Source: Pectinatus brassicae
Lineage (GTDB): Bacteria; Bacillota; Negativicutes; Selenomonadales; Selenomonadaceae
Assembly: GCF_014201835.1 (NCBI RefSeq)
Contig: NZ_JACHFH010000010.1
Span: 1-64,000, forward strand
Reading direction: 5' to 3'
DNA: 64,000 bases
The first letter of the stretch is position 1. Every line of letters starts with the position of its first letter. Shown one piece after another: positions 1 to 3,621 of this stretch. The notes under the pieces were generated by a model that ran no database searches, had not been told where the DNA came from, and saw only the letters and a program-made list of their open reading frames with translations. Made by a program: the position numbers and the translations under genes.

Positions 1-41
1 CTTTTTTCGGATTTATTTTGTGAAAAATTAAAAATAAACAC

Positions 42-90
42 AAAAAAAGAGCTGTGGACAAAATGATTTCTCATTTTGTCACAGCCCCTT
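42..90 (-). terminator. Intrinsic terminator of the dnaG-rpoD operon
   Basis: Read on the minus strand, ACAAAATGA pairs with TCATTTTGT around a GAAA loop. The stem continues with GGCTGTG against CCACAGC with one bulged base, and seven T follow. It lies directly after the stop codon at 79 and closes the leftward operon. Confidence 0.8.
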
Positions 91-573
91 TTTATTTTTA
101 CGTCTTAATTTTTTTACGAATTTACTGCCAGGTAATAAATGAATGACTTTTACGCCTGTATTTTGAATACGTCGAAGCGGGGCAATGCGTACTTTGGTAT
201 GAGGTTTCATATCAGCAATAGTGCCGAAATCACCGCGGCAAAGATAAGTCATTTTTATTTTTTCGGGCTTTATGGCCTTGCGCAAAGCCTGAATAATGCT
301 TTCAGGCGAGTTGTTTGGTTCACAAATAAATAAATCTACGGCGATGTAACGCAATGCTGTATAAGCATGAATGGTTATATGGCCTTGCTGCAGAGGGATG
401 AAAATAACAAAATGGTTATCATCGGCAAATTTTGTTATTTTTATATCTAAGGATGTTAAATTTATGGTAGCGAGAGTATCTTGCAAAGCCAGAGATAATA
501 AATCAGCATTTATTATTTTTTCTGTTTTGCAACTATACATATCAATGGCTAGCTGACGTGCTAGAATTTTCAC
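79..573 (-). CDS. AdoMet decarboxylase-like protein lacking the pyruvoyl serine
   Basis: This 164-residue protein resembles the bacterial S-adenosylmethionine decarboxylase (SpeD/SpeH) family, whose members self-cleave at a Glu-Ser bond to make a pyruvoyl cofactor for polyamine synthesis. Here the cleavage motif, normally ESH followed by hydrophobic-T-I-H, reads QGHITIH. Gly64 stands where the serine should be, while His69 and Cys84 match the family's processing histidine and catalytic cysteine. It therefore should not form pyruvate or decarboxylate AdoMet by the known mechanism. A basic C-terminal tail (last ~15 residues mostly Lys/Arg) makes it about 30 residues longer than typical members. 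The GTG start at 573 is chosen because AAGGAG lies 7 bases upstream; a TTG at 594 would overlap rpoD. It is the last gene of the dnaG-rpoD operon. Fold assignment is good; its present function is unknown. Confidence 0.75.
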   Translation of the reverse strand: MKILARQLAIDMYSCKTEKIINADLLSLALQDTLATINLTSLDIKITKFADDNHFVIFIPLQQGHITIHAYTALRYIAVDLFICEPNNSPESIIQALRKAIKPEKIKMTYLCRGDFGTIADMKPHTKVRIAPLRRIQNTGVKVIHLLPGSKFVKKLRRKNKKGL

Positions 574-1760: not shown

Positions 1761-3554
1761 TCACTTAACTCCATCCATTTCTTTTCTAATTCGCTGAATC
1801 TTTATAAGTTCCTGCTGAAATCTGTCGTCACCACTGCGCTCGAGTTCATCAGCTCTTAAACTATGTTCAAGGTAGCTTTTTTCTAAATGAGCGCGGTGAA
1901 TGATTTTAAGGTAATCATCGAGAAGCTTTGATTCATTGGTGTTTTTCTTTTCGACTAGGCAGCGGGATAATTCGGTATAACTATCATCACTGAGTTTTTC
2001 TGATGCTGTGATATCGTTGATAAAATTATTGTTGTGTATTTGTTCAGTTAAAAATGTTAGAATTTCGCGATGTTGTTTATTTTCAAATTCGTTAATCGGT
2101 GTAGTAGCCAAAATATAATCTAAAACATCAGGTTCCTGCCATATTCTGGTTATTATATGCCGACCTGCTTTGATAGCAGCACTGTCACCAGCAGAGTTGA
2201 TTGTTTGACTGATTTGAAAATTGCTGGGGGCAGATGATTGATTGCTATGTTTACGATATTTTTGCAGTTCATTGCGTAAATCAGTTTCATCAATACCTAA
2301 GGTCTGTGATACCTTGACCGCATAGGCATTGGATTCTACTAAATTATCAATTGAAGAAAGTATTGGCAAAATAAATGAAACTGCTTTTAGCTTTCCTTCC
2401 AGAGATGTGTAGTCGATATTTTGCATTATATAATGCAGGTGGAAGTCTATAAAACTAACAGCATTATCAATTAATTTGTTAAAAGCGGCAGCATCATGCT
2501 TTTGCAAAAATTCATCAGGGTCTTTGCTGCCATCAGGCAGCAATATGACTTTTACTGCAGCGTGCTGCCCTCGGGCAATAGATAAAGCACGCAAGGTAGC
2601 ATTTTGTCCAGCCGAGTCGCCGTCATAGCAAAAATAAATATTGGAGGTGTACCGCAGTATTTTTTTACATTGTTCAGCAGTAAATGCCGTTCCCAAGGAA
2701 GCAACACTATTAGCAATGTTATGACTGGCTAAGGCAATAGCATCCATATATCCTTCGACTATAATGGCATAATCGTATTGACGGATATATTTTTTGCTTT
2801 CATTAAGACCAAATAGCAAATTGCGCTTATTAAATAATAGAGTTTCGGGCGAGTTTAGATATTTGGGTTGGCCGTCTTTTATCAAACGTGCACCAAAACC
2901 CACGGTTCTGCCTTTTTCATCTTTTATTGGGATAATAATACGTTCGCGAAAACGATCGTAATAACCGCTGGTCTTTTTTTTAACAATTAATCCGACTTGT
3001 AATAATAAATTTTCATTGATACCGCGTTTTATAAATGCTGATGATAATTTATCCCAGCCGGGGGGAGCAAAACCCAAGTGAAATAAATTAATAATATCAT
3101 TATTGATGCCACGCTTTTTCAAATAGAGCAATCCAGGTTTTCCATAACTTGTTTTAGTGAGACAATTGTGGAAAAATGCTTGAGCCATTTCATGAATACG
3201 ATATAAATTTTTTATATTATTTTCATGTTCGATTTCACGGTCAGACTTTTTCTTTTGGGGAATGGGGATATTAAGGCGTTCAGCCTGAAGTTTGATGGCG
3301 TCACCGTAAGAAATATTTTCAACAAGTGATAAAAATTTAAAAACATTTCCGCCAGTGTGACAGCCAAAGCAATAAAAGAATCCCTCATCGGGTACAACAG
3401 AAAAAGAAGGGGTTTTTTCCTGATGGAATGGACAACACCCCCAATAATTATGACCGCGTTTTTTTAATGGAACATATGCTGAGATTACTTTTATAATGTC
3501 GGATGAAGAATGAACTTTGTTAACAAAGTCATTATAAGTAATATTATCTATCAT
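1761..3554 (-). CDS. dnaG: DNA primase DnaG
   Basis: DnaG makes RNA primers at the replication fork. The 597-residue protein has the N-terminal CHC2 zinc ribbon (Cys41, His44, Cys62, Cys65), the catalytic core and the TOPRIM domain with VEGYMD (Glu267) and the metal-binding YDGDSAG motif. A less conserved C-terminal domain for helicase binding follows. The start is placed at the ATG at 3554, because GGGTG lies about 7 bases upstream; an in-frame ATG five codons earlier has no ribosome-binding site. It is the first gene of the leftward operon with rpoD and the SpeD-like gene, transcribed from the promoter at 3622-3650. Confidence 0.97.
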   Translation of the reverse strand: MIDNITYNDFVNKVHSSSDIIKVISAYVPLKKRGHNYWGCCPFHQEKTPSFSVVPDEGFFYCFGCHTGGNVFKFLSLVENISYGDAIKLQAERLNIPIPQKKKSDREIEHENNIKNLYRIHEMAQAFFHNCLTKTSYGKPGLLYLKKRGINNDIINLFHLGFAPPGWDKLSSAFIKRGINENLLLQVGLIVKKKTSGYYDRFRERIIIPIKDEKGRTVGFGARLIKDGQPKYLNSPETLLFNKRNLLFGLNESKKYIRQYDYAIIVEGYMDAIALASHNIANSVASLGTAFTAEQCKKILRYTSNIYFCYDGDSAGQNATLRALSIARGQHAAVKVILLPDGSKDPDEFLQKHDAAAFNKLIDNAVSFIDFHLHYIMQNIDYTSLEGKLKAVSFILPILSSIDNLVESNAYAVKVSQTLGIDETDLRNELQKYRKHSNQSSAPSNFQISQTINSAGDSAAIKAGRHIITRIWQEPDVLDYILATTPINEFENKQHREILTFLTEQIHNNNFINDITASEKLSDDSYTELSRCLVEKKNTNESKLLDDYLKIIHRAHLEKSYLEHSLRADELERSGDDRFQQELIKIQRIRKEMDGVK

Positions 3555-3621
3555 AAGTTTCACCCGCATATTAATTTTGTTAGATAAAAAACATTTTTTA
3601 AAAATCAGTCAGACAGTCATA

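Follow-up and report, generated by a model that had tools for sequence, protein, structure and literature searches.

What does a relative of S-adenosylmethionine (AdoMet) decarboxylase do once it has lost the serine from which the pyruvoyl group of that enzyme is formed, and why is it kept? The question is raised by a gene at the beginning of the window, the stretch of 64,000 nucleotides of Pectinatus brassicae DNA that was analyzed. The gene, here called pseudo-speD (SpeD-derived pseudoenzyme), occupies positions 79 to 573 on the minus strand, with a GTG start at 573 and a TGA stop at 79–81, and encodes 164 amino acids. The first-pass annotation had placed it in a sigma-factor operon, regarded its product as a pseudoenzyme with an added basic tail, and suggested that the protein might bind AdoMet, RNA or DNA.

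A SpeD homolog without the pyruvoyl serine

The Pectinatus protein matches the Pfam family AdoMet_dc (PF02675) over residues 8–114 (E 1.3e-19, 71 bits against a cut-off of 25), and scores 65.1 bits with the NCBIfam equivalog model TIGR03330, under the cut-off of 75.65. We carried out the alignment with the Thermotoga maritima enzyme that the first-pass annotation had suggested, using PDB sequences (1tlu, E 3e-9). Gly64 (codon GGC at 382–384, minus strand) falls on the pyruvoyl serine, Ser63, and Gln63 (385–387, minus strand) replaces the glutamate that precedes it. His69 (367–369) and Cys84 (322–324), both also on the minus strand, fall on His68 and Cys83 and are kept, so the original reading of this motif was correct. 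In T. maritima, S63, H68 and C83 are essential in processing and catalysis (PMC10407285), and the Pectinatus protein is predicted to be unable to self-process. Glycine occupies this column in each of the 37 sequences that make up the surrounding clade, which rules out a sequencing error.

An AlphaFold2 monomer model has a core mostly above pLDDT 90 and a C-terminal tail mostly below 70, from which the tail is probably disordered. Foldseek aligned the model with T. maritima AdoMet decarboxylase, including the S63A non-processing mutant, at a target-normalized TM score of 0.83. Much of the AdoMet pocket has nevertheless been lost in the Gly64 clade. Phe49, Pro52-Gln53-Gly54, Glu73, Gly75, Thr83 and Gly85 are invariant in canonical SpeD and in nearly all members that have serine at position 64 (Ser-type), yet Phe49 occurs in 4, Glu73 in 7 and Gly75 in 3 of the 37 Gly64-clade sequences, and Phe49 is the sole survivor of the whole set in the Pectinatus protein. 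In the human and T. maritima enzymes, the counterpart of Glu73 is presumably the glutamate that binds ribose, and that of Phe49 a residue that stacks on the adenine. The loss of most of these residues makes AdoMet binding by Gly64-clade proteins unlikely, and disfavors that part of the first-pass proposal. Dead members still conserve Asp11, Cys15, His65, His69 and Asp80, so the core may still bind another ligand. In the Pro-Gln-Gly loop, Gly54 is replaced by histidine in 32 of the 37 clade members, a residue newly fixed after serine loss.

A conserved basic tail throughout the Negativicutes

Beyond the SpeD core, residues 110–164 (RGDFGTIADMKPHTKVRIAPLRRIQNTGVKVIHLL onward; 82–246, minus strand) form a Negativicutes-specific tail of net charge +13, delimited by a tail profile and by low pLDDT; taken as about 44 residues, the tail has a net charge of about +11. 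The Lys/Arg-rich extension noted at first pass is thus real: across all 82 aligned members the tail carries a net charge of +6 to +21, against a core median of −3, and canonical SpeD lacks it. The shared consensus reads KPEKTKTTYLKRGDFG..KDMKPK.KT.VAPLRRI.NTGAKVI.LL. Comparison with Pfam and PDB sequences returned no known domain or structure for the tail, the best match being a weak one to Phage_Hfq (E 0.14), and the idea that it is a known domain was dropped.

A pseudo-speD homolog is present in 58 of 60 relatives. Of 252 Negativicutes genomes, 246 match the tail-only profile, nearly always with a single copy; small genomes of 1.3–1.4 Mb are among them, and 84 of 86 genera are represented. 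In an even sample of Bacillota, the 16 matching genomes are all Negativicutes, with none among 381 others. Matches to the full-length profile outside the class mostly stop near position 113–126; distant Negativicutes members have both the whole SpeD core and the tail.

The complete Ser/His/Cys set is missing from 74 of the 82 aligned members. The Negativicutes survey suggested by the first-pass annotation found glycine not only throughout the surrounding clade but at residue 64 in 55 of the 82, with serine in 17 and Cys, Ala, Thr, His, Val or Phe in the rest; members that have Ser64 and an incomplete set mostly carry Phe instead of Cys84. The branches of the eight complete members are mostly short and lie close to the root, so the tail came first and catalysis was lost later, several times. 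The complete or dead state requires at least 6 changes on the 82-member tree, and serine alone 4 changes on a smaller tree; weak support for deep branches in the 82-member tree leaves the exact number of losses uncertain, although several losses are not in doubt.

Retention is accompanied by a shift in constraint. Because the Ser-type and Gly64 groups differ in divergence, the relevant comparison of mean pairwise identity is within each group: it is 70% for residues 1–60, 87% for the catalytic stretch and 57% for the tail in Ser-type members, and 33%, 52% and 64%, respectively, in the Gly64 clade. Core outranks tail in the first group and tail outranks core in the second, and constraint has moved from core to tail after catalytic loss. 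Between closely related pairs, dN/dS is about 0.02–0.18 in core and tail alike; neither part is therefore decaying, and the relaxed selection that marks a decaying pseudogene is not seen. Absence of the serine, repeated loss of catalysis, class-wide retention and purifying selection together lend strong support to the original description of the protein as a pseudoenzyme. We infer that the tail is the part that carries the selected function and that the core would serve as its scaffold.

Candidate functions

The serine-less SpeD very probably has a new job. In the account that we tentatively prefer, a class 1b AdoMet decarboxylase in the ancestor of the Negativicutes would have gained the basic C-terminal tail and with it a second, non-catalytic role. 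With another AdoMet decarboxylase in the cell (class 1a, encoded next to the spermidine synthase gene), the catalytic serine would have been free to go, and it was lost several times. Selection would keep the folded core as a tail-presenting scaffold, by analogy with T. maritima probably a dimer, while the tail would most likely bind RNA, DNA, the ribosome or another anionic partner. The protein would then be a class-specific housekeeping or regulatory factor, not an enzyme. Taken as a whole, we put this account at a little under an even chance. The least secure part is the partner: nucleic acid or the ribosome is our guess, and the RNA/DNA binding proposed at first pass survives as the leading one because the tail is conserved, basic and probably disordered. 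Basic tails have other partners as well, among them proteins, membranes and polyphosphate, and gene neighborhoods, which differ between families, give no firm partner. With lower confidence still, this nearly universal single-copy gene, a SpeD joined to a tail that binds nucleic acid or the ribosome and whose enzyme part died by independent losses, could be essential and class-defining as a regulator, and would resemble no known relative of AdoMet decarboxylase.

Other readings of the protein turn in part on the spermidine genes of the same genomes. The window's genome encodes a class 1a AdoMet decarboxylase (404 bits against a cut-off of 255.8) near the spermidine synthase gene speE. This 263-residue protein, with the motif DKSHVTVH, is encoded at positions 1369–2160 of locus L002 (contig C5 of genome G000) and is followed by an Orn/Lys/Arg-type decarboxylase, identified by reading its sequence, with SpeE nearby; the cluster appears to be the genome's real spermidine cluster. 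Given this enzyme and SpeE, pseudo-speD is dispensable for spermidine synthesis. Most Negativicutes genomes, the window's included, likewise hold both a class 1a speD and pseudo-speD, as would be expected if the dead paralog activated the class 1a enzyme in the manner of the trypanosome prozyme. Such a role is disfavored, and we consider it very improbable, because 12 genomes at least 94% complete (G007, G014, G017, G028, G356, G359, G369, G377, G386, G389, G391 and G502) keep pseudo-speD with neither SpeE nor a second AdoMet_dc gene. A lower-scoring SpeE homolog (188–198 bits) without class 1a SpeD occurs in G012, G019, G035, G351, G360, G372, G050 and G352. The first three of these are near-complete and have pseudo-speD as their only SpeD, a pattern that would suit a protein that is still an enzyme and decarboxylates, or catalyzes some other reaction, with an alternative mechanism or cofactor. 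That Gly64 is invariant in its clade instead of drifting, with His69 and Cys84 kept there, would suit it as well. Glycine, however, cannot form a serine-derived pyruvoyl group, which to our knowledge every known member of the fold uses, and elsewhere in the Negativicutes residue 64 varies and Phe often takes the place of Cys84; retained catalysis is thus improbable, if slightly less so than a prozyme-like role. A gene annotated as "S-adenosylmethionine decarboxylase", Vpar_0438, is reported to fall 18-fold in coaggregating V. parvula (PMC6529473); we did not count this as evidence on pseudo-speD, since gene positions in related genomes suggest that Vpar_0438 is the class 1a gene.

A role as ligand sensor, in which the core would bind AdoMet, decarboxylated AdoMet or a diamine (for example cadaverine or putrescine) and the tail would signal to a partner, is unlikely but deserves more weight than either of these. 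His65, His69, Asp11, Asp80 and often Cys84 outlast the serine, relatives of the fold bind AdoMet or amino acids (PMC10407285), and a polyaminated peptidoglycan, to which diamines such as cadaverine and putrescine are attached, is typical of the Negativicutes (PMC10628300). The dismantled pocket of the Gly64 clade speaks against AdoMet itself as the ligand, and the diamine link is an association only. Gene order raises a further candidate, that the protein assists the CtsR-McsA-McsB-ClpC proteostasis system, as a partner or an adaptor. The genes ctsR-mcsA-mcsB-clpC adjoin pseudo-speD or lie near it in families of the Sporomusa type, in two genomes of the Veillonella type and in another family (the two type labels are inferred from sequence and named loci); pseudo-speD is usually divergent from them, and the protein families were confirmed at one locus. 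Yet the two are unlinked in most Selenomonadaceae and in two further large families. The sequence between the genes contains no CtsR box, which led us to reject co-regulation by CtsR, and the linkage may be ancestral synteny only. In our view the neighborhood may mark where the gene lay ancestrally and hints only weakly at function; the adaptor role is doubtful, somewhat more so than the sensor. Last, the gene could be a decaying relic, or a sigma-70 companion owing to its place behind rpoD; the lost serine fits the former, and its position as the last gene of the dnaG-rpoD unit in Pectinatus the latter. With dN/dS far below 1, near-universal single-copy retention and no rpoD linkage outside Pectinatus, this is the most improbable of the explanations considered.

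In the window, the primase gene dnaG (1761–3569), the sigma-70 gene rpoD (587–1708) directly upstream of pseudo-speD, and pseudo-speD itself are all on the minus strand. The 13-nucleotide gap between the rpoD stop and the pseudo-speD GTG (574–586) contains the ribosome-binding site AAGGAG, as read from the sequence. A terminator-like hairpin followed by a U run (43–93, minus strand; −28.6 kcal/mol, z −6.67) overlaps the pseudo-speD stop codon; it escaped a simple terminator scan, was picked up by its folding energy and z score, and is likely the end of the dnaG-rpoD-pseudo-speD unit. The sigma-factor operon and the retention next to rpoD and dnaG described at first pass hold for the genus, in five Pectinatus genomes, but for neither the rest of the family nor elsewhere in the Negativicutes. 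Being confined to Pectinatus, the rpoD linkage carries little functional weight and was rejected as a clue to function.

Several further features of the locus were observed. The ctsR-type arrangement, in more than one layout, is found at most of L034 and L044–L062 and at L218, L219, L224 and L230–L232. Other neighbors occur in families f15, f148 and f4; a ClpB neighbor read from sequence in one f4 genome was discarded, as it is not adjacent in a second f4 genome. An unusual number of pseudo-speD copies have a contig end no more than a few hundred bases away (window positions 1–81; also G001, G005, G013, G015, G027, G029 and G043). In some genomes an rRNA operon is near the gene (L039, L041), which may explain the contig-end position there. 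Contig C57 of G015 (L064) ends with a second, partial pseudo-speD match behind the first one, which may reflect a tandem duplication.

Comparison with known AdoMet decarboxylase relatives

Sequence libraries label pseudo-speD as AdoMet decarboxylase, and spermidine synthesis is likely over-predicted across the Negativicutes as a result. These bacteria are common in the human gut and mouth and in the rumen. A single-copy gene in nearly every member of a diderm class of Bacillota may also have to do with something fundamental in these cells. The change from enzyme to non-enzyme took several separate steps, and intermediates that combine the tail with intact catalytic residues survive, which makes the order of events testable.

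Neofunctionalized SpeD homologs, a degenerate fusion domain and a dead prozyme are already known (PMC10407285, PMC5201418). A stand-alone, tailed, class-wide SpeD pseudoenzyme of bacteria was not found in the literature searched, most subscription papers lying outside it. The closest known system is the class 1b AdoMet decarboxylase (SpeD/SpeH; T. maritima 1tlu and 1tmi), with which pseudo-SpeD shares sequence homology, a common fold and, in the Pectinatus protein, the catalytic histidine and cysteine. It differs in the absent pyruvoyl serine, the replaced glutamate, a pocket that is mostly dismantled in the clade, and the added basic tail. The trypanosomatid prozyme (PMC5201418) is likewise a dead AdoMet decarboxylase relative that, like pseudo-SpeD in most genomes, stands beside an active one; in contrast to it, pseudo-SpeD is a single-domain, tailed protein of class 1b and is retained where there is no active AdoMet decarboxylase or SpeE. 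SpeDC and SpeDA, pyruvoyl ornithine and arginine decarboxylases derived from SpeD (PMC10407285), are also neofunctionalized and often second copies in their genomes. They keep the serine and decarboxylate, whereas pseudo-SpeD, judged by its residue 64, could not form the pyruvoyl group. The degenerate C-terminal SpeD domain of the Victivallis SpeD-SpeDC fusion (PMC10407285) is another bacterial SpeD domain without its active-site residues; that domain makes up one half of a protein whose other half is active, whereas pseudo-SpeD stands alone, carries a tail and extends across a class.
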